Assembly: GCF_001619985.1 (NCBI RefSeq)
Contig: NW_017264193.1
Span: 439,726 to 503,725 of the forward strand
DNA: 64,000 nucleotides
Source of the DNA: Xylona heveae TC161
Taxonomy: Eukaryota > Ascomycota > Xylonomycetes > Xylonales > Xylonaceae
Reading direction: 5' to 3'
Of the stretch, positions 9,681 to 63,800 are shown piece after piece. The position numbers and the translations under genes were made by a program. Numbering within the stretch: position 1 is the stretch's first letter; each line of letters opens with the position of its first letter. The notes under the pieces are model-generated. The model was not told where the DNA came from. It did no database searches and saw only the letters and a list, made by a program, of their open reading frames with translations.

Positions 9681-11750
9681 TCATAGACCGTTAATACCGC
9701 CAGTGACGCCATCAATGCCGGTCTTGTCCGCGAGACGTTTCTTCACCTCAGGAACGAGATTGCCGCCAGTGACGCCATCAATGCCGGTCTTGTCCGCGAG
9801 ACGTTTCTTCACCTCAGGAACGAGATTGGCGAGATCGACGACGATGCCGTCCTTTTCGGGGTGGCCTTCGGGCAGGCCTAGCTCCTTGATCTTGCACTTG
9901 CCTTGAGCTTGTTCGTCTTCGCCGAGAATCACGGCAAATGGGACACCGCCAATCTCAGCAGACTTGAATTGTTGGGGAAGCTTAGGCTTGACCTTGTATG
10001 CTAGTTCGGCCTGTATATTTCACAATGTGTTAGCGGGATGTAGCTTCTAGGTTGAGAGGTGAATGGGAAGCTGATGGGGAGAGAGGAGTAAAGATGAAGA
10101 GGAGACATGAATAGTACCTTGATACCGGCATCCCAAAGAGTCTTTGCGATAGACATGCGCTCCTTCAACAAACCGGTGAAGCCCTTGCCACCAAACGCCA
10201 TAACAAAGACGTCAATCTCGTTAAGTCGGACCGAGGCAGCAGTCTTTTGCGCCTCCATTCTTGCCTTGGTAATCGAGAAGATACGCTCAATACCAAACGA
10301 GATACCCACACAAGGGATCTGAGCTTTGCCAGAGAACATGCCGACCAGGTTGTCGTACCGACCGCCGGCGGCGACACTGCCGACGCCAACATTGGGGTCG
10401 GCGGAGCGGTCGTCGTCCTCGCCTTGAGGCTTGCCGCTGCTCTTCTTGGCCGCCTTGGTGGCCTTTTGTGCCTCGGCGGCTTGAGGTGCGGATCCCTCCG
10501 TGATGACCTCGTAGATCAGACCAGTGTAGTAGTCCAAACCACGGGCAAGGCTGAGGTCAAATGAAATCTGACCAAGCACGCCGTACGCCTCGAGGTACTC
10601 GAAGAGAAGCTCCATGTCCTCGAGACCCTTTTTGGCAGACTCGTTGCCACTCAGGATCGCATCTTCCTTCAGCGCGGCAAGCAGTTCTCCTTTGCCTTTC
10701 CGGACAACGTATTCTCCAATCTTGTCGGCAACGGCGCCGTCAAGGCCCTTTTCTTCTGTCATTTCGCGGCGGACTTCGGCCCAGGGGGACTGCGAGAAGA
10801 AACAAACCGTGTCAGCAAGTAAAATTGCGAACAGAAAGCCCAGAACCTAAAGAGATGACAATATCCTTACCTTGTCGAGCTTGTCAACTGCACTGCTGAT
10901 CGTTCGAATCTTTTCCTCGGGCACACCGCAAACGGAGAAGATGCCGTCTAGGATTTTCCGGTGGTTGAGCTTAATCGTGTACTTGCCGTCCCAGCCAAGA
11001 CCTTCAAACACCTCGTATAATATCCGGAGAATCTCTGCGTCGGGAAGCATAGCGTCGTATGTGCCGGCAATGTCAAAATCGCATTGGTAAAACTCCCGCA
11101 TCCGTCCCTTGGTCATGGCCGGCTGGTCTCGACGGTAGACCTTGGCGATGTGGTACCGCTTGATATTCTGCACAGACGGGTTCATGGCGAGCCAACGGGC
11201 AAAGGGAACAGTCAGATCGTAGCGCAGTGAACAGATTTCGCCGCCCTGGTCGGCCAGATCATAAATGAGCTTGCTGTCTTCACCATACTTGCCGGCAAGA
11301 ATTTCTCGAAGTTCGAAAACTGGGCTGTTTCAAGTCAGCTCGTTGAACATTGTGTATATTCAGCCGCATTTGAAAATAGCTCTTACGTATCTAATGTGAC
11401 AGCACCGTGGCGCTTAAAAACGTCTGTGATGCTCGAGAATATCCGCTCGCGAATGACCATGTCCTTGCCCTCCCCTATCGTCAATCAGCAAAAACATATC
11501 ATTTAAAAAGTAAAAAAGTGATAGCGTCTGTTTCTGACACTGCTCCAGAGCGCGTACAGTCTTTGGTCCCCTTAGGGGTCTTGAGCTGGAAGGAAACCTT
11601 GTCTTTGCCCATTTCTTCTTCTTGTAAACGTCTGGTGGTTATTGAAAGATTGCGGCAGCGTCCCGCCTGACTCACGATAGTCAGGCAGTTGAAGCGAGTT
11701 GTGCGGACTGGTGGTGCAGACCAAGTACGGAAGAGACGTGCAAAAAGCAT
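9681..11750 (-). CDS. HTS1: Histidyl-tRNA synthetase, likely dual cytosolic/mitochondrial
   Basis: A class II aminoacyl-tRNA synthetase charging tRNA-His. Exons are 11750-11558, 11474-11387, 11324-10871, 10789-10118 and 10010-9681 (578 aa). Family landmarks include [48 protein letters not shown] and [11 protein letters not shown], followed by the anticodon-binding domain ([12 protein letters not shown]). Two in-frame ATGs fit one gene serving two compartments: from 11750 the product starts with an Arg-rich, acid-poor presequence typical of mitochondrial import; from 11612 it starts MGKDKVSF, the usual cytosolic form. The C-terminus carries a perfect 22-residue tandem duplication (9697-9828). 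It is divergent from vps33 across about 440 bp. Confidence 0.95.
9697..9828 (-). repeat. Perfect 66-bp in-frame tandem duplication at the end of HisRS
   Basis: The units 9697-9762 and 9763-9828 are identical base for base. Each encodes 22 residues beginning [14 protein letters not shown] in the C-terminal anticodon-binding domain, so the reading frame is preserved. Complete identity suggests a recent event or an assembly artefact. Confidence 0.95.
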
Positions 11751-15414: not shown

Positions 15415-16825
15415 ATGGAGGACCCTTTCGTCTCCAGAGACTTAAACCTGGCAACGCTGCCAAGCAAGTTGAAGTTTGCGCCCTTAGGCAGACGAATTGC
15501 TGTCTCAAACCTGGTGCAGGCTTCATTCCCAGGAAACCAACAAAGTCCAAAATCATTTCAGCAATGGAAAACCGTGCTCGTCACCATCAAGGAGCTTCTC
15601 TTGAATCGAAAATTCAGGGAATGCTTTACTCGGTGCCTCAATCTTTTGCAATCGGTCCGGGATCAACAATCTGTAAGTTCGCGTCATTCTGGGCCGGGAA
15701 GTTGAGCTTTCAAATCAAAACAACAACAAAACCAGTGAATTGCTTTTCGCTAACACTCCATGTCTCCAGTCCTACATTCACCCAATTCAGGAGAGTGCTT
15801 TAAACTACTACGCCGCGCTCTGCTGTGAGCTGCTCGCTCGACCTTTACACATTCTGTCCGCCGACCGCCTTCGCCGTCTCGAGTCTGCTAGAGAGCATTA
15901 CCTCAAAGCTTCAGATATACTTCCCGGTCTGGATGCCGAGGACACTTGCTGTTCTTCCTCTGCAACCTTTTCTTCTCCCAAGAAGCTTCTGCGCTCAATT
16001 GACACCAACGTCGCCAACTTCTCGAAAAGTCGCAACGGTGTAGACTTTCCAGCGTCTTCCCCTCGCCGGTTGCACTCAGACTCTGTAGCTTCTTCTGTTG
16101 CAAGCTTCTCTTCGTTGGACGCTATTTTCAACTCTCCGCCATTCAAAGGAGCTTCGTCCGCGTCAGCCCATTTTTCTCCTTTGCCATTTAAACCACAGGT
16201 GCACCATTACACTTACAATGACGGCCATAACAAGGAAAACAGCATGCCTAGCTTCGACAAAGATAGCTACGAAGAGGAGGATGACAGCGACACCGACGTT
16301 CATGATCCATTTGGTGGTCTAAAACCTTCACCACTTTCCATTCGCAAAGTCGACAATCAAAACAACAATCATAGTCATACTTGCAATCGCAACCCGTTGG
16401 TCCCCTCACCGCTGCGTCCCAAGTTGAAACCTATCCTTCAACCAACCAAGGAGCACTCCAAACGTGCATCTGTATCTTCTCTAGGTCCAGCCCCTTCTCC
16501 GCCCAAACGCGCCTCGGTCACGTTCACCGAAGAGAGCACCGCCTGGCTCCGCATGCGTTCTCGCCACCGATTCAACTCGCATCTTACTTCTTTTGCAGAA
16601 ATGCTGCATCGCCATATTGATGCCGTTGAGGAACTTGTGGAAGCGACGACCAAGGCGCAAGCCATTCATCGCGAGACTCAAGCGCGTTGTCGAATTTATA
16701 GTGAGTCGAAGAAGACAGATAAGGAATCGAGGATTGCGCGCTTGAGAGCTGTGGGATGGCAGCGCCCTAGATTCGATGCGGAGAGATACCAGCGGCTCTG
16801 TCAGGCTGTTTTGGAAGAGCTTTGA
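15415..16825 (+). CDS. Uncharacterised conserved-looking fungal protein
   Basis: I do not recognise a named family. Exons are 15415-15672 and 15770-16825, giving 437 aa. Residues about 45-135 are predicted helical (WKTVLVTIKELLLNRKF, LNYYAALCCELLARPL) and could form a small TPR- or MIT-like bundle. Residues about 140-320 are Ser/Pro-rich and look disordered, with an acidic patch (EEEDDSDTD) and a KEN tripeptide near residue 241 that could be an APC/C degron. The last 100 residues are helical again (FNSHLTSFAEMLHRHI, AVEELVEATTKAQAI) and basic. The ATG is chosen for the clean MEDPFVSRDLNLATLP start and the intron that follows. The two structured ends flanking a variable middle suggest a real regulatory or scaffold protein. 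Function unknown. Confidence 0.8.
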
Positions 16826-18245
16826 TGCTATTATCGCAGGGTGTCCGGTGTGCGAGAGAAAGGGGAGGACATTTTCTCTTTCTCTCTATTTCCGTCTCTT
16901 TCCTCCAACTTCTTTTTCTGCTTTCTCCAATACTTTTTTCTAATCTATTTCCGTGGTGCCTTGTCTCTAGGTCTTTTCACCGGCTTTTCTTTTTCTTTCT
17001 TCTTTTTCTTTTCTTTTTCTTTCTGTTCATTGTTTTGAGACTTTCTTGTTTCTTGCGGCTCGCCATTATCCGTCTCTGGTTTCAGTTTTGTCATGCCTCT
17101 ACTCCTTTCCTTGTTTTTCTTGTTTTGTAAGCATGCTTTTGCCACTCTTTTTAACCGTTTTGCGTTTGGAATTTCCTTTCGATTTTGAGCGTGGAGAATG
17201 GAGATTGTTGTTCCTTGGGACGGAAGTTGACACTTTTTTGTAGCAGCTCTCTTGGGAGGAGAATTTGATGTCTCAGCGCGCTCTTCGGTTTTGCTGAGAA
17301 TTACCTAGGATTGCCGAACTGGGAATATTTGATTGGCAAATCGGCAGATCAAAGCATCATGGAAATAGTCATGTCTTTTGAACTGTTGGTTTTGGCGTTT
17401 AGGATGCTGCTCATATTTGTAACGCACTAACGTGCATGAGGCATGTCTTCTGATATTATCAATCAGTTTTTACTCAGATATTAATCTTAATAATACAATT
17501 TACAAATAATTATACTATAGTCCTGGCGTTGAGTGACCCGAAACCAAAACAAAACTCTGGCAATGCGGTCCGGGTTTAGGCGACTTTTCTTGCAGATATG
17601 CACAAGGCATGCCACAACCAGTGTTTGGGTTGTCTTTGGACTCTCGCTAGTTTTCACTTTCTGTGCTCGTTGGCTCCTACATCAATCATGTCTACTATGG
17701 TCTATCAACGCAGGGACTTTCACGTTAAAACAATCACTGATTGGATCAGCAGCATACAGGTTATGAGGGAATTAAAAAATTAATTGGTTCGCTAAATGTC
17801 TTATGATTCACAATAGTCATGAGTATCTGGTTGAAAACAAATCCTGAACGCCTAATGAACCCAGGATCCCAGTCCCAATGGCAACATGTTTCCGAATGGC
17901 ATGTGCTTAGATCCTGCAACTCCACTAAATCCATTGTCTTAACGCCTTTGTTATCCTATGCATGGATAATTCATGCCACTTGCAATCTTGACTTTTCTTC
18001 ACAATTCCATACGCTGCTGAACCAGAGACTAACTAGTTGAGTAGTTGACGAGTCCTGCTCACAGGAGACAGCGAGTGTGTCAGACTGCAAAATGAATTAT
18101 CTTGTCAGCGTTATTTTCACCATTTGTCTCAATATTGCATGTCTTTTTTTGCAGTTGAGCTCCAGTATAGGGCAAGGTATTTACATACCATATGGTTCAG
18201 CCAAGCACGTCTTATGAAGAGAAAGATCAAAACAAACTGGCTGCT
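16826..18245. other. Intergenic region with a long pyrimidine-rich tract
   Basis: From about 16855 to 17135 the plus strand is strongly T/C-rich, probably the 3' UTR of the preceding gene. From about 17440 to 17525 it is A/T-rich. Open frames at 17533-18040 have no features of a protein. This begins the gene-poor accessory island. Confidence 0.6.
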
Positions 18246-18524
18246 CTAAGCAGCTGCAGCCTGCTCAGCGACCATGATGTTGGCTTTATCCGGATCAGCT
18301 ACAACGAGCATGATCCAGTCCTCAGTGGCCGTGACACTGTAGTCATAGGCTGCTGCACGAATTGTGAGGCTGAGCCACGAGTTGATGAGGTACTCGGGGA
18401 TTTCTTCACCATTCTGGCCGAAATTGGTTTTGAGGATATTCCATTTGGCCAGAACCCAATCGGTGTGACGGTTGGTCCAGCCCTTGGGCACGGACACGCT
18501 GGTGGTGGGTGTAGCAATAGGCAT
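18246..18524 (-). CDS. Small Pro-x-x-Trp family protein A (92 aa)
   Basis: An unrecognised 92-aa protein, single coding exon. It begins MPIATPTTSVSVPKGWTNRH and lacks a signal peptide or membrane segment. The segment P-K-G-W-T-x-x-x-T-x-x-V-L matches the start of a module found in the four other small genes of this island. The rest is helical with further tryptophans (INSWLSLTI, EDWIMLVV) and an Ala-rich end. A TATA-like box lies on the minus strand at 18961-18970, about 440 nt upstream. The leader could be spliced (donor GTGAGT near 18691, acceptor CACGCAG near 18580). Function unknown; it is the most diverged member and its membership is an inference. Confidence 0.6.
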   Translation of the reverse strand: MPIATPTTSVSVPKGWTNRHTDWVLAKWNILKTNFGQNGEEIPEYLINSWLSLTIRAAAYDYSVTATEDWIMLVVADPDKANIMVAEQAAAA

Positions 18525-20195
18525 TTTTGTGCGTTATTTGTGTCTGTTGCTTGTGAGTATTTGTTCTGTTTCATGAGCTGCGTGAGGAGGAGAGGAAGAG
18601 AGAAGGAAAAAGAAGTGCAGAATGTGAAGCCTGAGATAGAGACCTGGAGGACTGGCTTTCGGAATAGAGAAAAACTGAGAGGAATTACTCACGAGTAACA
18701 AAGAGGTTTCTGGAAGGTTTCTTGAGAGAAGAGCAAGACTTTCGTGTGGCAGACAGAACCTGAAGCCCGTGGAAGAGCGTTGGAGTGTTGGGGATGTAGA
18801 GGGGAGGTACGCAGGTTAAAGGTAAGGTATGGAGTCTGAAGCTAAGGATGTCTGATGTTTGGTGTATGATGTCCAATGTTGGAGTATGTATCGTGAAGAT
18901 AAAAGGAAGACGAAGAAGAGAGGATGAGAGTGGAAGAAAAGTACAACGGGCAAAGAAGGGTTTATATATACCTGTTCTGTTCGAAGCCTGCATTCAGAAG
19001 GAAAGTGAAGAAGGCGAAGTAATTGAAGTAACTGAAAATCGTGGCCACGAGACGGCGCGGTTCACCAGAAGTGGGAAGTGAGGTTACCAATGCCACGAGA
19101 GGAATTGGTGAAGGAGGTGAGCACGAAGTGTATGGGAATTGCAAGCCGCAATTTTGCAAGTGACGGTGTAGGTAAGATAAGGTAATTCTTTTTATTCCCC
19201 TTCTTCATTTGCTGCGCAGTTCTTAGATCCCTACGTGTCCCACGGAGTCAGAGACTCGATGAATTCAAGTCTCAGGAGTCAAGATTCCAAACCCCTCGAC
19301 TCTTTCCCATTGGCATTTTCCCATATCCCGTTTTGTAGTCGTATTTGTTGCTTGCTGTTTTGTCAATCGCCAATTAACTGGAGAGTTGATGATTGATCGT
19401 TGGCCCTTACCGTTGTGTCATGTTCATCTGTTTCTATTCATAATTTTTCTTCTTTTTGTACTACGTGGTACAGGATACAGATAATCCCGAAGACGAGGAA
19501 TGATGGAATATCTTCTGGCCATCTTTTCACGAAAAGTGAAGGGTGAGTGGATATCGAAAGCTTGTATGCCGTTACGTCAAGGTCGGTTGGACGGGAGTGA
19601 ATACGGTCTGTGGTGTCAGTGTCAAGTGAGATTAGGGTTTACTGGGTGCTAAGCGTGGCTGCGTAGGGGTCTGGGGTGACAGCTAATAATCTGGGATTCA
19701 AATGGTCCCGGGAAGAGGAGTCGAGTTGTTTACGGAGGATGGTAACATGTCTGGTACGGAGGTATGCTAAAGAAGTATTTGACTGGAAGAGCTGGAAAGT
19801 CAGACGGGTACGTAAACTTGATCTGATCTGGGTTTTGTTATGACGTACTGACTCTGACAGCAGGACGGCAGCTACATATAAGACTTTTTGACACGCATGA
19901 TAAGGAAGTGCTGATTGGATTCTCTGAATAAAATTATGCTAGGGTTTTTTTGGATACCTATCATGACGCCTCGAGTACGCGGTATGTCATTGAAGTCTTC
20001 GAAGCATTTGACCCTCCTTTCCCACTTCTACCATTATCAGATTACTCCAGATCTATGTGAAATATTACTACCCCATTGCATTGCGACTCTTTCTCCAGTC
20101 TCTTCCTCTATCAAGTCCTTATTCCAGCCCAATAAACTTTAATTTGCCCCATATTCCACCACAAAAAACTCCGTGCTTTGCATACCTTCGCAAAG
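18525..20195. other. Intergenic DNA in the accessory island
   Basis: The first part holds the leader and TATA-like promoter of the 92-aa gene. The rest, about 19000-20195, has no supported gene and no obvious repeat. Confidence 0.55.
18961..18970 (-). promoter_or_regulatory. TATA-like box upstream of small protein A
   Basis: On the minus strand it reads TATATATAAA. Similar boxes lie upstream of the other small family genes. Confidence 0.45.
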
Positions 20196-20495
20196 TTATC
20201 CCAAATTCTGAGCTTCCATCTTCTCCTTTTGCTCCCGGATCAAAAATTCAATATATCCCTCAATCTCCGCTGGCCCTCCGAATCCCAAGCTGCTGAGAAA
20301 GGCCGCCTTTTGCTTGACCCAATCTACATAATTGTTCTGGCAGGCAAACGTTCGAGTGCACAAGATTCGCGGCGTCACACACTCGCAGATTCTTAGGCCC
20401 ATGTATTCGTCAATCACAGACCGGGAGAGAGCTTGCGTCCAGTTGAGTGGGGCGCCTTCAAAACGACCAATACTGTGGAAAGATGAGTTGGGCAT
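20196..20495 (-). CDS. Small Pro-x-x-Trp family protein B (99 aa)
   Basis: An unrecognised 99-aa protein, single exon, starting MPNSSFHSIGRF. It has the module start A-P-L-N-W-T-x-x-L-S-x-x-V-I near residues 15-27. A Cys-x-Cys stretch (RICECVTP) follows, then YVDWVKQKA. It ends in IEGYIEFLIREQK. The YxxWVxxKA and IEGYI(D/E)F(I/L)I motifs are also in protein C, so B and C are the closest pair by eye. There is no signal peptide or membrane span. A TATA-like box at 20571-20580 (minus strand) sits about 80 nt before the ATG, a normal spacing, which supports this as a real transcribed gene. Function unknown. Confidence 0.65.
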   Translation of the reverse strand: MPNSSFHSIGRFEGAPLNWTQALSRSVIDEYMGLRICECVTPRILCTRTFACQNNYVDWVKQKAAFLSSLGFGGPAEIEGYIEFLIREQKEKMEAQNLG

Positions 20496-22052
20496 TGTGA
20501 CTCGTGTACGCGGGTTTTTGTGTCCTAGATGATTCGTATTAGCTGCACTTCTGGTTAGAGATTTTTATTTCCTTTATATAGAGAGGGAGGAGACTTGATG
20601 TGGAGAACGAAACGTAGACCGGTCTGAGAAAATCTTTTTGTTTGTGTGGTTGGATGTCAAAGATAACGCGCCGTGGAAGATGAAATAACAAGAATATTGA
20701 GGGTTTGAGAAATATTGTGGAAGATCGAGTTGGATCCGAATCTGAAGAACAAGTATTCCAAAGCTGTTCCATGTCGTATGTTGGACTGTTTTATATAACT
20801 TTTAGAACTCAGTGATTCTGTATTCCGCATTCAATTTACCTGATATCTTCTGTTGTCATTTTGGGGAAGAGTAAAGGCAGGCATGAATACTGAAAGTAAT
20901 CTCTGCAAGTTAATAAGTAGTTATAATTTGCAAACTCTAACATTCAAATATTTGGTGCATATATCGAGTTTCTCAGCATCATTGTGAAAGAAACTAAAGT
21001 CCATGAAAAGAGTTAACAGACACATGGACTGAAGGAGATGACCCTAATTTATATACATGAGTGACGAAGAGTAGACCTGTTAATGTAATATTCAATATAT
21101 CATCAATATGAAACGTGAATATATTAGGCAGCATCTAAATGACCTCGTGGGCTTATGGCTCTGACTAATGGACCCGCATCGCAGTATTCTGTAGATATTT
21201 GGGACCTCGGAGGCTCGGATCCTTGGGCCTCGAAGAGTGGAAGTCATAAAATAGATTGTCTCTTTGCATTTTCGTCTTTCTATTTCTCTCTTGTAAAGCC
21301 GTAAGCCTGTGAGCCTTGACTCAGAAATCAGAGTTCGAAGATGTAGCTTACCAAGTGCGTAAAAGCAATGATATGTAGTAGATTGATATGTAGCATACTG
21401 TAGGCAAAGGGTGCGCTTGGAATAAGGCTTCTTGCTATTTTTGAAAGTTTCTTGTTATCTTTTACAAATTGAGAGTTACCTTGAAAGTGTTTGTTTCGAT
21501 ATGCTTGCTGCTATGCAAGCTCTAGCGCCGCCGGGGGTGTATGCTACATGTTGTATGCTTCTACATAAAGTTTCGGGTAGGGCTTAGCTGAAGTCGCTCA
21601 CTAAGCATCCGGCCCTTTCGCTAAGACCGGCCCAAAACCTACCTGAGGTAATCAGGGGTACGGTCTATCGGTTGTCGTCAAGGGTGGTAACAGTCACCAG
21701 AAGAAAGTCCTGTTATGTAAAACGGGCTAAGGATCAGAATTGTTAACGCAATCGCTTTAATTTCTCCTCCTCTGCATAAATGCTATCTCAGCTCTATAAT
21801 TAATCCACCGCATAATATTCCCAATATTAAAAATCGAAAAAAGAAAACCCCTTTGCGTCAAAAGACGACCACAAATAAGCTGAGATGCGATTTCCAAAAC
21901 TTCCTCCTTCCTCCTTTGTCAAAAACTTCCCAAGCTTCTAAAATAGCCGTTTCAAATGCTCAGCAGGATCAGCCACAAACCCACCGCGGCGCATAGCCGC
22001 ACTGCTGCATTGAAATAAGCCATTGAAGCTTTTCTTGGAAGACTTTCACGGT
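20496..22052. other. Intergenic DNA in the accessory island
   Basis: It contains the promoter of small protein B (TATA-like boxes at 20571-20580 and 20791-20797, minus strand). The remainder is A/T-rich without a supported gene. Confidence 0.55.
20571..20580 (-). promoter_or_regulatory. TATA-like box of small protein B
   Basis: Reads TATATAAAGG on the minus strand, about 80 nt upstream of the ATG at 20495. Confidence 0.55.
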
Positions 22053-22370
22053 TCACCATCCGCTGAGCTGGCGACCAATCTCCCGCTTGATGATAAAGTC
22101 GATATAGCCTTCAATGGCGTACTTGTTGGAATCCGGGGTGCGCAGGTCCCAATTGTCCCTCCACATTTCCTCAGCCTTGTTTCGAACCCACGCATGGTAC
22201 TGTTGAAGGCAGTGGTTGTTTCCATTACAGTTTTTCATGATGTGGTCGGGGCAGATACAAGTAACGTATTGGCCAACGCCGAAGAAGGAATTCAGAACTA
22301 GGGTGCTGAGGTAAAGACTCCAACCCTTGGGCTCGGGGGCTGGATTCACGTGGCCAAAAGGACCAGACAT
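22053..22370 (-). CDS. Small Pro-x-x-Trp family protein C (105 aa)
   Basis: An unrecognised 105-aa protein in one exon. It starts MSGPFGHVNPAPEPKGWS; the ATG at 22370 is preferred (A at -3) over an in-frame ATG at 22439 with a poor context. Module features are P-K-G-W-S-x-x-L-S-x-x-V-L, a Cys-x-Cys-Pro stretch (CICPDHIM), a later Cys, then YHAWVRNKA and the end AIEGYIDFIIKRE. Cys-x-Cys, YxxWVxxKA and IEGYI motifs align with protein B in the same order, so the two look like diverged duplicates. A TATA-like element is at 22675-22682 (minus strand). No signal peptide. Function unknown. Confidence 0.65.
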   Translation of the reverse strand: MSGPFGHVNPAPEPKGWSLYLSTLVLNSFFGVGQYVTCICPDHIMKNCNGNNHCLQQYHAWVRNKAEEMWRDNWDLRTPDSNKYAIEGYIDFIIKREIGRQLSGW

Positions 22371-23171
22371 TTTGTGGTTTTTTGTAAGTAGATTTCTGCT
22401 GAGTTCGTTCCCGGAGGAGGATGTTAGAGGCAACAACATGGGAGGGTACAGTGGCTAAAGTTGAAGGGCATGTTTGGTGCAATGGTGCAGTGGTGCACTT
22501 ACTTGAACAGAAGATCAGAATAGCTTTCTCGGGAGCAAGAATTTTTGTCAAGGTACGTTCGGAACTTGGTCTGGAAACGAAACAGAAGAAGGATGCTGCG
22601 AACGCTATTTAACTGACTTGTCACGATCTATGAGACAGGAAAGGGAGAAGGAAAAACGCTGCAGCTTCGCTGCGTTATATAGACTGCATTTGCACAATGA
22701 ATCACAGAATTTCTGAACACTTGGGACATTAACAGTACTGCACTTCTGCACTGGCAGTCTGGTGATATATATGACTGCGTGGACTGCTTGAAGGCAGATC
22801 CTCATTCAATGTCATGCATCAATGTGAAGGTCAACACAAACCATGGATATTACAGTAAAATCAAGGTTCCGGTGGCAGTCAAACAGACACGTTAGAGCAA
22901 GATTCACGACATACACGGTCACGCTCCAAATTTCTTCAACTTCAGCCAATATAATGTAAACACATATCACCAACATGTTTTGCGGAAGAGATATAGATTC
23001 AATTCATCTACCTATAATTAGCCATTAAATGAATGATGCTTGACTCACCGATCATCATCTTCATTGATAGCATCCTCCTCTCGATTTCCCTAAACCTGCT
23101 ACAATTGTTTGCGTTGATCTCAGATCTCGACGACAAATGAAATTCCGCTTCCTAATGGCAACAAGTCAGCT
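22371..23171. other. Intergenic DNA in the accessory island
   Basis: Holds the leader and TATA-like element of protein C and the 3' flank of protein D. No gene seen. Confidence 0.55.
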
Positions 23172-23621
23172 TCAATCCAAATGTCTAAATCTTGGCTCAT
23201 GATTATCCGCGCCCCAGCCCAGTATCTTGACCTGGTTAATCCAAAAGTCATCAGCGAGGATATGCTGCTGGGCGTACAAAATGCGAATAATATCCTTATT
23301 CACGCGTTCTTTTGCATCGTGGACAAATACCGCCAAGGTAGCATCATGGCACCATCCCTTGGGGGGGTATGTCTCGAATTCTTCACGGATACGGCTATAT
23401 TCGGTGTTTTCGGGATTCTCGGTATCAAGGTAAATGCGCTCCCATGTGGCAGCGAATCCGACCTTGATGACGTGCTGGATCCAAAAGGAATCAGCCTTGA
23501 TACGGTGGTTCTTGTCTAGATGCTCAATTAGCGTCTTCTCGGAGAGGAAGTTGGCGTCACCTTCTAGCACAAGCATAGTCGCTTTGTGCGACCAGTTCTG
23601 AGGAGGGTATGTCTTGATCAT
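23172..23621 (-). CDS. Small Pro-x-x-Trp family protein D (149 aa, two modules)
   Basis: An unrecognised 149-aa protein in one exon that is visibly an internal duplication. Module 1 starts TYPPQNWSHKATMLV near residue 4 and reaches ADSFWIQHVIKVG; module 2 starts TYPPKGWCHDATLAV near residue 84 and reaches ADDFWINQVKILG. Each module is about 50 residues long and they share YPPxxWxHxATxxV, then DA, then AD-x-FWI-x-x-V. This gives the clearest view of the family motif: Pro-x-x-Trp, Ala-Thr, and a closing Asp-x-(Phe)-Trp-Ile. There is no signal peptide or membrane span and few cysteines. A TATA-like box is at 23758-23766, about 140 nt upstream. Function unknown. Confidence 0.7.
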   Translation of the reverse strand: MIKTYPPQNWSHKATMLVLEGDANFLSEKTLIEHLDKNHRIKADSFWIQHVIKVGFAATWERIYLDTENPENTEYSRIREEFETYPPKGWCHDATLAVFVHDAKERVNKDIIRILYAQQHILADDFWINQVKILGWGADNHEPRFRHLD

Positions 23622-25327
23622 GTTTTCTGTTGGTAATTGTTGATGATATATGGATAGCGTATTAAAGTGAGGTGTAAGTATTGTGATCGAAGCTGTGTTG
23701 TAGAATTGCTTGGGAAGCTTGGTGGAGAGGGAAACATTCTCTGGGTTAAGACCGCGAAATATATAGAGATTTGAGACGAGTTGTAAATGGCTTTGTTCGA
23801 TAGTTGTGTTGGTAGTTTCTTTGAGCGGTGGACATGAAATAACAAAAGATTTTGTTACGTGAACAAAGCGACTCTAGAGATGAACAAGGAGATACAGTCC
23901 ACAAAACAACGATGAAAGGCGAACGAACAAAGAATGAAGCGGAGCCAATACCCGATAATGGTCTTGAAAGAGTTTTCCTTTCGAGCGGATTTTGAAAGGG
24001 AACTTGCTGCTTTGATAGAGAAACAATGCATTGTAGTTAGGCAGTCAAAGTGTACAGCCGTGGATTCTTGTTGCTTCAAGTATTGTTATACTTTGTACGG
24101 ATATTTTCGAAGGTATTTTTAAATGCTCTATTTTATATGTAATTACCTGATGAGCTTGAGACAATTACACTCAGTAGGCCAGCGGGAGGTTGAAGCTAAA
24201 GACAAACGAGGTTCCACGAGTCTATCAGGCTACAGTCTGGTCTTGATATTACAGCCTCATCCTCCAGTCAAAAGTGGAAAATAGAGACGGGAAAAGGGAA
24301 AATAAAATTTCAAATCATCAAGGATATTGGATAAAAACTTGACATGTTTCATAGGCGATCTCCGTACTCTGTGACGCAAAACGTAGTTCAACGCGGGTAG
24401 CTGCCTTAAGCAGATTTACATATCAGAGTATCAATAAATCCCGGGAATCCGCGGTAACACCAATAACCGTTTTGTGAAGCCTTATTCTCGGATGTCAGTG
24501 TCACAATCATGAATTTTGGGTTACAAAAATATTTGACTCCACGGGTTGAAGGAGCTGCGGCTTGAAAGGAATGAGCCAAAAAAAGAAACAGAAATAACGG
24601 CAATTCCTCTTCACTAGTTTAGCAAGTTGATCAATTGCGCTTTTGTGAGCTGCAGTAGTTGAAAGCTGTCTCGAGTTTCTGATATTGCTGCCATGCGTCA
24701 GCTGTGGTCTGCTCTTGCTGCCTCGGCGTTGATATGTCCAGTCCCTCGAGAAACGTTCATTTCTCAATAGTCAAACGCTGATTCTAAGTTTCTCATATTA
24801 GAACATGACAACAGATGCAGTGTCCTTCTCCCACCTTCTTGATGGCTCATTTTTGTAGTTCTCAGTCTTTGTGAGTGTTTCAGACAACAGCTCAGCTGGT
24901 TGAATGGATTTGGATAAGTCATCACAGGATTTACTATCCCGACTGCATCACTGCGTCAGTCTTCAGAAGGGAGCAAAGTCTCTGCGGTGAACATGGCCAT
25001 TGCCTTTGACTTTTGGAATCAAGGTAACCATTTTACTTTTTTTATTTTGCATATATATTTGGATCCTCAAAGTCGCTTTACTCATCCAGTTTTCTCAGTC
25101 GCTCTGACATTCGGTTTATCATCTTTCTGTTTGGCAAAGGCGGAGTGCTGCTTTGCACTTGTCCCTTTGAAAGCCTAAATCGAAACGTCCTGGCTGCAAA
25201 TTGAAAGACCCAGTTTTTCACCGAGGGTGCTTACTGCAGGTGCTATTACCCTGTAAGCCGTTTATCTTTCCTCTGTCAGTTTCTCAGCACGCTCATATAA
25301 ACAGGCTCTATTGGATTTTTCAGGACC
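23622..25327. other. Intergenic DNA between divergent family genes D and E
   Basis: Contains the promoters of both genes: TATA-like boxes at 23758-23766 (minus) and at 25051-25058 and 25295-25300 (plus). Open frames at 24406-24767 and 24987-25178 show no family motif and are not called. Confidence 0.55.
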
Positions 25328-25852
25328 ATGCCGAATCGTTCACTATCTTCCACCCCTCCAACCTACTGGATGGCTTCTTCTACACGCCCTCCAAACACAT
25401 GCTGTTCTCTTCCTTCGTCTCCGGATCAAGGTCCATCCTGTATTGAAGTTCGGCCAAACGATTGGACGCCCGCCTTGACGCAATTTGTCCTGCGGTGCCT
25501 TGCGGAGCGAAAGCTTTCCATATCGGACACTACCACCGCGGTTGCATACGAAAAAGGGTTCAGTACACACGACGTATGGATCCAGACGATCAAGTTCTTT
25601 GGCAGAAGCGTCGACACGTGGGACGATGAGACAACCGTGTGTTCGAGAAACATCTATATTGTTTCGGAGCATTGGTCACAGGATTTCGTCAAGTATGTAT
25701 ATGACCAGCTGGCCAGCGGCGAGGATATGCAAGCTATCGAGTACTGGGTCATTGGTTGGTCAAATTTTCACTTGACAAAGAATGATATGTGGTTTCTGGG
25801 TGTAATTAGAACTCAAGGCCTCCGGGCGCTGAACTCAGTGACATGGATATGA
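25328..25852 (+). CDS. Small Pro-x-x-Trp family protein E (174 aa, two modules)
   Basis: An unrecognised 174-aa protein, single exon, with a Ser/Pro/Thr-rich first 40 residues. Module 1 starts RPNDWTPALTQFVLRCL and closes with HDVWIQTIKFFG; module 2 starts SEHWSQDFVKYVYDQL and closes with NDMWFLGVIRTQG. The order (Trp-Ser/Thr, hydrophobic helix, Asp-x-Trp-Ile/Phe-x-x-x-Ile, Gly) matches protein D, so E also looks like a two-module member, although it lies on the opposite strand. Its start MPN-x-S resembles protein B. No signal peptide. The ATG has ACC in front, a good fungal context. Function unknown. Confidence 0.65.
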   Translation: MPNRSLSSTPPTYWMASSTRPPNTCCSLPSSPDQGPSCIEVRPNDWTPALTQFVLRCLAERKLSISDTTTAVAYEKGFSTHDVWIQTIKFFGRSVDTWDDETTVCSRNIYIVSEHWSQDFVKYVYDQLASGEDMQAIEYWVIGWSNFHLTKNDMWFLGVIRTQGLRALNSVTWI

Positions 25853-26244
25853 TAAAAGGGAAAGGTCGGAGAGGCCAAAGGCGTTTGCGGCATTGTGGCC
25901 CGATATTACTTTTCCATCAATCATATCTGGTAACTTATGGGCACATCATGGAAAATGAGATGGAAAGCAAATACACGACTTTCATCAGCTAAGTCGGTTT
26001 CGGAAGAAAATAGAACAGTACGTTGAATACAATGCAGCATTTTAATCAACATAATAAATGAACAGGTAGTATTAGCAACTTAATAATCAACAAAGGGGAA
26101 AGCTGTAATTTGGTATCATAATAATAACCCGACCTCGCAGCCGCGAGTTACAGGCTCAAAATGGTAAAAGAGCAAAGACCAAGTCTAAAAAAAGAAAATT
26201 TAAAAGTCGCATATGTACCTTGTCCGCAGAGTATAATTGGGTGT
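25853..26244. other. Intergenic region between convergent genes
   Basis: A/T-rich 3' flank shared by small protein E and cmkA. Nothing else seen. Confidence 0.6.
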
Positions 26245-27954
<1,710 letters not shown>

Positions 27955-55678: not shown

Positions 55679-56956
55679 ATGACCTGCCTGTGCAGTAAGT
55701 TGCGCTCTTGTTCGTACGACACCATCACACCGGATGAAGTACGCATTTTATCCATTCATCTAATACAAGTTTACTGACTTGAACAGTGCACACTTCTCAA
55801 TGAGACTTATCGGATCGCCCCCTCATTATTTCGCAAAGATACCCGGCAAGAACGACTCGAAATATTGAGCAAAAGTTATCCAGACACAGAATTCGAATTC
55901 TTTTGGAAGAATGTGCGTCAGCCGCAGGAATATTTGAAGGAACAGCTGGCCAAGGACAATTTATTATCTTGTCCCCAAACTGATACCATTGTCCACGTCT
56001 ATCTTGCTATTACCTCACTTGAGCCAAATCTTGTCATACGCCAAATCATGAAACGAATCTACTGTCTGGCCCTTTCAAGGAAATATCCGATACGTACGTC
56101 TCATACTGCTAGTGTCTCCCGGATCCTGCAACTTCCAGGCAATTTGGATCCCAAGAGCGTCAGTAATAAATTTAAGAAATTGGTGTGTTATGGTCGCCGT
56201 TGGGAATGGATCGTCCGGAAATTTGCTGGCGAGACGGGAATGTTATGTTTACTTGGAAAAAATTGGGTTGTTCTCAACCAATTGCAGCTCCTTAGGGGTA
56301 AGATATTTCGCTACCAAGGACATTTTCAAGCTGCTTTGGTACAATTCAAGCAACTTTTTCAGGAGGTCGAGAACCATGGGGACCTCTATTTCGACATTCG
56401 CCGTGAGCTTTTTTGCAACTTGGCGGATGCCCTCTGCGAGTCCGACAAAGGAGAAGAAGCCGAGAGAATCTTGACTGGCGAACTTGCGCGTCCTTATGAT
56501 GGGTATAGCTCACGAGACGTCTCGGAGTTAAAGTTGTCCCTGGTCGAAGCTCTGCTACAACAAGGACAGGGACGGCTTGCTGAAGCCCAGAATATTCTTG
56601 ATGGACATCCTTGGGGAAAGCTTCCACGAGCGGCGCAGCTCCGTCTACTTACTCTCCAAGCACGGATTCACCACTCACAGGCACAATATGCCGAGGCGAA
56701 AGCAAAATGGTCTGAAGCTCTTGACTATGTTCAGAAATTCCCTCTTGGCCATGGGCACGCATCCAGGGCAATCCTGTCTTCGCTTGCGGATTCTTTACTT
56801 AACATGGGCGACTTGGAATTTGGTAAATTAAGTATAGAGCAAGGCAAGGTGATGGCTACCGAGGGTGGCTGTCGATTTTGGATTGCGGGGCTGGGGAGTT
56901 ACTGGCTTGATTGGGTGAAGACACGAGGAGCTGAACATGCTCTTCGCTCAAAGTAG
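55679..56956 (+). CDS. Helical-repeat (TPR-like) protein, unknown
   Basis: A 409-aa protein from exons 55679-55738 and 55787-56956, joined over a 48-nt intron. The first exon gives MTCLCSKLRSCSYDTITPDE. From about residue 190 on there are repeating helix pairs with TPR spacing (LRGKIFRYQGHFQAALVQFKQL, CNLADALCESDKGEEAERIL, LSLVEALLQQGQGRLAEAQNIL, LTLQARIHHSQAQYAEAKAKW, LSSLADSLLNMGDLEFGKL); the residues Gly, Ala and Ala recur where TPRs need small side chains. The N-terminal 180 residues are basic and without known motif. TPRs bind protein partners. In fungi such tails also occur on NLR-like proteins, but there is no NTPase domain here. Function unknown. Confidence 0.7.
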
Positions 56957-60851: not shown

Positions 60852-63800
60852 TCAAGCACCCAGCTGGTCTTTCTTCACCTCTACCAAAATATCCTTGGCG
60901 TCATCAATGAGAGTATCGGTACTAGCCAAGTCCGACTCACTTGCATTATCAGACTCGTCGAACCTCTCCGCCGAGGGGACAGGGATATCATCGACCACTT
61001 TATTCTTATACTCTTCAATAATATTTTCGAACCCTTCCCGGACTTTATCCGTCCTGTAACACGCGACCAGATTACGGCGGGGCACGAGTTTTTTAATCTT
61101 CCTATGGACCTCTCCCACGACGGGTCGATACGCACGGGCAGCGACTCTCAGATCAGACGCAAGCGGCTGGCCAATGTTCTTGGCGGAGGCGTCGCGAAAG
61201 GACTTTGCCAGGATGAGAATCAGATCGGCCGCGAGCATGAGCAGGAGGCGGGCAGTGGCAGGGACCACGAGGGGGATGTTGAGCGCGCTGGAGGCAAGGA
61301 AGACGGGCATGCCGCCCAGAAGCACAGAGGCGCCGACGCCGACGAGCGCAATGCCCTCGGACAGAACGACAATCATGTTGTTGGTCAGGTCGTCCCAGAC
61401 GTTGATCTTGACAATCTGCAGCGCGGTCTCGCCGGAGAGGAAGGGCAGGCCGAAACACGCAATGATGGTCCGGCAGACGTCGACGGCGGAGCTGGCGCGC
61501 GTGGTGGTGGGCAGGATGGGGATGCCGGCGACGGCGGTCGCGCCGCGGAGGGAGCGCTTGTAGGTGCGCATGACTTCGCCAATGGCGAGGTCCATTTTCA
61601 GCTCGATCCGCGAGACTTGTGCCCGGATGTAGAGGATGCGGACTTTCTCCGAGGAGAAGCAGCGGGAGGTGGTGTCTGTGAGGTTTTTGATGGAGTCTTC
61701 GTCGTCTTTTTATGTTGTTTGTTTGTTAGCTAGGATAATTTTGCAGTGCAGTGCTAGCTGTATAACGTTTATTGTCTTTTTGGGGTCCCCATGGGGTTGT
61801 GAATGGTTCGCCATATCATGGGAGCCCGTTTGACGAGAAAGAGACAACATAAGCTCACCTCGGGAAATTGGTACACAAGCGTCGAGTCGACCGTTATGCA
61901 CGGCCAGCATTTCTGCCCTGATCAAGGTCACGCGCTCCCGCACTTGATCTTCGGCATATCGATCGCAGTCTTCCATGACTACTGGCTGACGGTTTCTTGT
62001 TAGTAGTGTACGGCGCTCATAGAATTTGGCGCCGAAGAATTCATCCATCTTCGTCACCACCACAATGATGGGCACTTCCTGCGCATACTCGGAGACGGCT
62101 TTGAAGAGCTCCAGTGTTGCGTTTTGCTTGGTTCGTGGACTTGGCATGTCGATGCAAAACCTATGTTGGGTTAGATTTTACCGTCTCCCCATCGCACTGG
62201 CTTGGAAGGGGATGGATGATGTTTTTGAAGCTTACCATATAACGTGAAGCCGATCGTCAATTTCAGCGGTAGTGGACTTCTCCTTCAAGAAATTCTGCAC
62301 AACGCTAATTTCTCCAGTCGCGCCAGCCTCAAACCCTCCAGAGTCGTGTACAATCAGGTCAGGTCGATCGTCGTATCTGATCTCCTTCCTGATATCGTGT
62401 ATACCCCTCTCCCGCGATGATTCCCCCGTCTACATATGCAATTAGCTTTGTTCAATGACCTTGGAGTGCGTCAGTAGGCTTACAAGCGGAACTCCAAAGA
62501 CCTTGTTGATCAACGTTGACTTGCCGACTCCAGTATTACCACATACCAGGACGCGGATTGCTCCAAGGTGATCAAATTCCGGAGTCGGCTGATCATTCCA
62601 AAAACCAGTGTTGAGAATATTACTCTTTGTACCCATCACCTGTTTCCTGCAGTGCTCGATACTGTTATGCAGCTTCAAGTCCTTGGTATCAAGGCTGATA
62701 TTTATTGACTCATCCATAAGGAGGAACACCGAGGGATGAATAACGGTACCCTGGGGAACTGCCGTATGTTTCAGCAATTATTAGATACAATGACTGGAAT
62801 CTGGTATACTTACAAAAGCTCCATCCATTCAAGCTGCCTTCACTGTTGACCACTTTGCGTCTCTCCTTCGGCCACAATGTGGCGTGATGTCTGTTGAGCT
62901 TTATACTGTAGCGACCCTCGTATCGCTCGAGGCCATGGACCCGACGAATGTCCTGCATCTTGATCTCCAAGCCATTCTCCATCCTGCAGGTCCACATGTC
63001 CGCTCCTTTGCCCTGCTCCTCCGTGACTGGAAACACGAGTCGTAGTGGATTGTCGATACTGGCTCTTCCTCCAAATGTGCCATGAAATGACAAGGCTAAA
63101 CCAAGGGATTGGCTCTCGAGCAACATCCATTGCAGCGGGTACAGAGATAGGCCAGCCTTCGCGGCAGACCCACCCATGTCGATATGAGCACCGGCGAACC
63201 AGGCTTGCACAATGCTTCGCTCACCAAGTCTATTTCTAAGATCTGGATAGATGTATTCCGGTGTCATCGCCTTTCTATCCTCATGGAGCGCCAAAGCATG
63301 GCGTAGATGCAAGATGGAGTCGTTAAAGGAAATGTCGAAAAGGAATCGATCATTTACTGCTTTGACAGTATCGAAGGCGCCAATGAACTTGATCTTTGGT
63401 GGTTTTCGAGTAGTAGCAGAGAAATACGAATGTATCTGTTCTGTCAGCACCAGGACATGAGATGCCGAATCAAGCATCGAGCGAAAAGTACCTGACCAGG
63501 TCCAAGCTTGCTCTGCTTCTGAAATGTGGCGTACACTTTTAGGGCTGTTTTGTAGTCTTCTGCGAATTGCGGGGTGCCGGCCGAAGAGATTGCTCGCAGG
63601 TAATGCAGTAATCCTGCCACTGCTCGCACAACAAAGGCACCACGACTGAAGCCGAAGAGCCAAACCTCATCTTCAGAGCTTAGCCTGCAGCATGTTTCGT
63701 ATATCTTTTTAATCTGCTGCAAGTATCCTTCGCCGAATACCCCTGACATTATCCTTTCCATGGAATGTGTATCATCAGCTGAGCCAATACCAGGCTCGTA

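Follow-up and report, generated by a model that had tools for sequence, protein, structure and literature searches.

The window analysed here is the whole of a 64 kb stretch of contig C1 of the ascomycete Xylona heveae TC161 (NCBI RefSeq NW_017264193.1, positions 439726-503725; the 17 contigs of the genome total 24.28 Mb). The named neighbours in the window (Table 1) agree with a fungal source. It contains an island of five small open reading frames (ORFs), termed genes A to E, whose products carry one or two copies of a module with two tryptophans: the first lies in a P-x-x-W motif and the second closes the module. Genes D and E have two modules each (D1, D2, E1 and E2), and a sixth gene of this kind, F, is found on contig C5 (Table 1). 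A preliminary description of the locus had reported five ORFs with the lengths given for A to E at these sites, and the ORF list bears this out.

Table 1. Genes and modules with the two-tryptophan pattern, and named neighbours; positions are those of the window, except for gene F
Feature	Position	Strand	Description
Gene A	18246-18524	-	92 aa; one module, PKGWT...EDWI, W-W distance 54
Gene B	20196-20495	-	99 aa; Cys-bearing subfamily, PLNWT...VDWV
Gene C	22053-22370	-	105 aa; Cys-bearing subfamily, PKGWS...HAWV
Gene D	23172-23621	-	149 aa; two modules
Module D1	23370-23621	-	PQNWS...SFWI
Module D2	23172-23369	-	PKGWC...DFWI
Gene E	25328-25852	+	174 aa; two modules
Module E1	25442-25645	+	PNDWT...DVWI
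Module E2	25646-25852	+	SEHWS...DMWF; weakest module
Gene F	L011 1504-1806 (L011 from 1008020, contig C5)		sixth member, outside the island
RRN3			window neighbour, by domain
Sec1			window neighbour, by domain
TRI12-type pump domain			window neighbour, by domain
Complex I 49 kDa exon			window neighbour; the best-matching PDB chains are fungal

The two-tryptophan module and its genes

The pattern W-[STCG]-x3-[TS]-x2-V-[LIFY], followed by a closing W, is full in seven of the eight modules; the eighth, E2, has V at +5, as well as V at +8 and W at +39. The two tryptophans are 37-44 residues apart in seven modules, the exception being A. The preliminary description had defined seven modules (those of A to E) by a P-x-x-W-[STC] start, which is present in six of them: E2 lacks the proline. 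The closing tryptophan that it had noted is present in all seven, in varying contexts (Table 1), and also in F. It had not listed the valine at +8. Among 3793 ORFs in 264 kb there are 74 P-x-x-W-[STCG] sites, seven of which are the Pro-bearing modules including F. All seven have V at +8, as against three of the 67 other sites; likewise, all seven have W followed by I, V or F 33-58 residues past the first W, as against one of the 67. The corresponding hypergeometric probabilities (7e-8 and 4e-9) overstate independence, the modules being kin.

The ORFs of A to E look like coding genes by several measures: in all five, the codon score of the reading frame exceeds those of the five alternative frames, and clearly so in A (0.23), C (0.15) and D (0.17); further, the base at -3 before the ATG is A in all six genes, A to F. 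Gene C has 105 codons when read from its inner ATG and 128 when read from the outer one. In the alignments of B with C, B with F, C with F and D1 with D2, identity is 0.45-0.65 at codon positions 1 and 2 and 0.19-0.35, near random, at position 3. The copies are hence far apart in time or in rate, and third positions this close to random do not separate old from fast divergence. The fast divergence that had been proposed for these genes is accordingly not borne out, nor is there a signature of repeat-induced point mutation in the island. DNA of this sort often has open frames of about 95 codons, and antisense ORFs of comparable or greater length are present, so that one or more of A to E, and most of all A, might not be a gene. 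We regard this as very unlikely, given that A has the highest coding score of the five, has A at -3 and matches a profile of B, C and F (BCF) at p = 0.0005 (2000 shuffles).

Kinship within and between the groups

Two groups are held together by strong similarity. In whole-genome searches with each protein, B finds F at E 1.4e-8 and C finds F at E 0.004; in turn, F finds B at E 2.3e-8 and C at 0.006. The shuffle z-scores (1000 shuffles) are 12.3 for B-C, 23.1 for B-F, 11.0 for C-F and 16.1 for D1-D2, and 16 columns are invariant in the alignment of B, C and F, three of them cysteines. B, C and F are thus kin by significant similarity between members, D1 and D2 are kin likewise, and gene D is an internal duplication. 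With F on contig C5, the family is not confined to the island; the prediction that homologues would be found is borne out only inside this genome, by this sixth member. F adjoins an ORF which we take to be the electron transfer flavoprotein beta subunit, and has a weak match in Pfam, to Phage_int_SAM_4 (E 0.05).

The shared module and the duplication earlier proposed for the island are supported; what ties A, D and E to B/C/F is statistically weak. In the whole-genome searches D and E find only themselves, and A finds itself and one chance match on contig C4 (E 0.47), which lacks the module pattern. The z-scores of the weaker pairs with BLOSUM62 (BLOSUM45 in brackets) are 4.5 (3.1) for C-D1, 3.3 (5.1) for D2-E1, 3.1 (3.6) for A-F and 2.5 (3.4) for D1-E1; A-E1 has 2.9, the remaining pairs are below 3, and E1-E2 has just 0.5. 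We further made 18 held-out tests, in which each protein was left out of the profile and its score was compared with those of 2000 shuffles: 14 gave p 0.0005-0.0085 and four gave 0.07-0.45. Nine of these were trained with B, C and F and reached A, D or E at p 0.0005-0.0085; a D1D2E1 profile reached A, B, C and F at p 0.0025-0.0055, and D1D2 by itself reached E at p 0.001. In rankings of the 3793 ORFs, BCF places A 7th (E 1.2), below its three training members and three unrelated ORFs, and E 18th; D1D2 places E 3rd; D1D2E1 places A 4th, F 7th and C 11th; and ABCF places E 5th and D 7th. All held-out E-values in this set are at least 0.8. On these weak statistics, A, E and the groups B/C/F and D1/D2 would likely constitute one family.

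The low cross-group z-scores (-0.6 to 3.3 with BLOSUM62, C-D1 excepted) and the between-group held-out E-values would also agree with a tryptophan motif shared by chance between two or three small families of separate origin (B/C/F; D, perhaps with E; and A) that happen to be neighbours. We consider such a chance likeness improbable, since V at +8, S/T at +5 and the closing W stand at equal positions across the groups, the ABCF profile places both E and D near the top of its ranking, most of the held-out tests succeed and the motif is clustered.

Genome-wide distribution and surroundings

Two DNA patterns, both picked after the modules had been seen, were searched for across the genome. The shorter covers PKGW[S/T/C] and also some sites ending in R or W. 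It is not enriched genome-wide (22 sites versus 23 in a reversed control), but three of its sites (A, C and D2) lie within 4.9 kb on one strand (scan-corrected probability about 2e-4). Among the remaining 19, read by eye, there is no module-like one: in L054, two Trp follow at +33 and +35, but V at +8 is absent. The longer pattern, which adds S/T at +5 and V at +8, has 80 sites versus 68 in the control, with five within 7 kb of island; these are A, B, D1, D2 and E1, whereas C, E2 and F are missed on account of other codons. The modules thus share a motif, and this motif is clustered in the island.

Of the other 75 sites of the longer pattern 61 were read and 14 left unread; three of those read (L085, L064 and L071) have Trp at +33 to +58. 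In L064 no such Trp directly precedes I, V or F, and the profile score of L085 is close to zero bits. The best outsider is L071 (C1:1968566-1968966, minus strand), an open frame in which the P-x-x-W motif is joined by V at +8, by Trp at +42 and by several cysteines. Its score with the BCF profile is 9.3 bits (p 0.002 against shuffles, 0.006 with the motif kept), and p is 0.001-0.041 with two other profiles and 0.09-0.28 with D1D2E1. Its whole-genome search matches itself alone, and an overlapping frame on the same strand looks by eye like a membrane protein; hence, we do not count it as a member, though it may be one. A candidate pair on contig C12 is not in one open frame with a module and, by eye, seems to lie antisense to another gene.

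The loci L077 (C2:3102482-3102882) and L078 (C17:5645-6045) have near-identical translated stretches. The former lies some 23 kb short of the end of contig C2 and the latter on the 13 kb contig C17, which suggests a common repeat near contig ends.

The island is bounded by an ORF ending at 16825 and by a minus-strand protein kinase ORF with its 3' end at 26245, and its GC content is slightly below that of the flanks. Among the ATG-initiated ORFs of at least 60 aa listed between 16.8 and 26.2 kb, the other longer ones overlap A to E, either antisense or out of frame; the ones clear of these genes reach at most 102 aa (16825-17130, 101 aa; 18685-18993, 102 aa). No tRNA was found in the island, and among the 20 of 22 direct repeat families shown, no long high-identity repeat copy joins two of genes A to E. 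Elsewhere in the window, two exact 66-base tandem copies (9697-9828) adjoin a histidyl-tRNA synthetase ORF; their length is a multiple of three, possibly giving an in-frame duplication of 22 residues. An ORF at 62710-63666 has a Tle1-like phospholipase catalytic domain (PF09994, E 2.7e-21), and a long ORF at 55778-56956 has TPR matches that are weak and below the cut-offs, with no other domain named.

Predicted fold, possible relatives and role

The AlphaFold (AF2) models are helical and of modest quality, with predicted local distance difference test (pLDDT) values of 77.2 for B and 75.3 for D1, the latter a three-helix bundle. In both, the first tryptophan lies before helix 1 and the second in a later helix, and the order of helices, compared without superposition, is similar. 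This recalls the Myb/SANT and other trihelix (helix-turn-helix) domains, in which a Trp opens helix 1, hydrophobic residues occupy +8/+9 and a second Trp stands at about +39, and to which the tandem modules of D and E also correspond. The modules might accordingly be very diverged Myb/SANT-type domains that bind DNA or histone tails, with the first Trp, the small residue at +1, the hydrophobic +8/+9 and the second Trp keeping the Myb spacing; however, B, C and F differ by an extra helix and a Cys loop, and the modules are mostly acidic. This lead, like that of the Clr5 domain (PF14420), which by eye has a similar length and the same order of Trp, two helices and an aromatic residue, came from fold and spacing and was then tested by sequence. 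No module matches the Myb/SANT profile in Pfam. A Myb profile from the same genome (12 of its 21 Myb matches listed) gave p 0.10-1.0 for the eight modules, and in the reverse test four of 36 comparisons fell below 0.05 (lowest 0.016), about as expected by chance. A Myb-type origin is hence a rather unlikely account of the module. Clr5 likewise has no Pfam match: against the one Clr5 match of the genome, shuffles gave p 0.05-0.94 for the eight modules, and four module profiles gave 0.046-0.83.

Beyond these two leads, Pfam, NCBIfam, PHROGs, PDB and IMG/VR gave no convincing relative, and neither did a set of 5.8 billion proteins, which is not shown to hold fungal ones. The proposal that the genes belong to no named family thus stands for the named collections, with 'undescribed' limited by uncertain fungal coverage. 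The literature, as seen in listings and the openings of abstracts, yielded no fungal PxxW motif or orphan family of this kind.

The products of A to E are acidic to neutral (pI 4.6-6.9) and that of F is basic (pI 9.5). The preliminary description had noted no signal peptide, and by eye no member has a hydrophobic stretch at its N-terminus. Their small size and the cysteines of B, C, F and E (4, 4, 3 and 5, three of them invariant in B/C/F) would suit effector-like or cysteine-rich proteins that leave the cell by an unconventional route and act extracellularly. Given these N-termini, and with no Cys in A and one in D, we hold this to be most improbable.

We favour, at a probability of roughly one half, the reading that A to E are protein-coding genes of one lineage-restricted tandem family encoding small intracellular helical proteins, the location being suggested by the absence of a hydrophobic N-terminus. 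The family would have arisen by tandem duplication, with internal doubling of the module in D and E and one dispersal (F). Its module would be a small helical unit: one Trp, in P-x-x-W-[ST]-x3-[TS]-x2-V-[LIFY], would stand immediately ahead of helix 1 and the other within a later helix, and the predicted core that they probably pack is three-helical and helix-turn-helix-like. The middle helix seems to be replaced by a Cys-bearing loop in B, C and F. Because the proteins, except F, are acidic to neutral, we infer that they bind proteins rather than DNA, for example as small regulatory adaptors. We think small intracellular binding proteins most likely, at low confidence in this step; the self/non-self or stress role suggested earlier finds no support, as none of the evidence bears on it.

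Several observations weigh against the favoured reading. The codon scores of B (0.06) and E (0.02) are barely the best, with 15 long ORFs hand-picked from the same window as the reference, and the codon-position identities come from protein-guided alignments, which are biased toward positions 1 and 2. No search gives a significant E-value for A, D or E versus B/C/F, or for A or E versus D; D1D2 by itself misses A, B, C and F (p 0.07-0.45), and a profile of E1E2 ranks D just 12th and F 16th. The models of B and D1 are each based on three sequences, and that of D1 is one of five, the other four having pLDDT 44-59. Finally, the evidence for a binding role is indirect.

Clustered orphan families are frequent in fungi, and the present genes resemble the lineage-restricted tandem families of small orphan proteins in this group: they are small, clustered, with one dispersed copy and no named relatives. 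They differ in being defined by a two-Trp module of their own. It is possible, if doubtful, that this is a new family built on a two-tryptophan trihelix module without detectable ancestry and expanded in one fungal lineage; equally tentative is its depiction as a small regulatory cluster with single-module, double-module and Cys-loop forms. With such families being common and role and mechanism at most inferred, the finding opens no long-standing question and its interest is modest. If true, it would nonetheless present a compact orphan family that has diverged to the limit of detection inside one genome, and would be useful for understanding how small taxon-restricted proteins arise and keep their fold.
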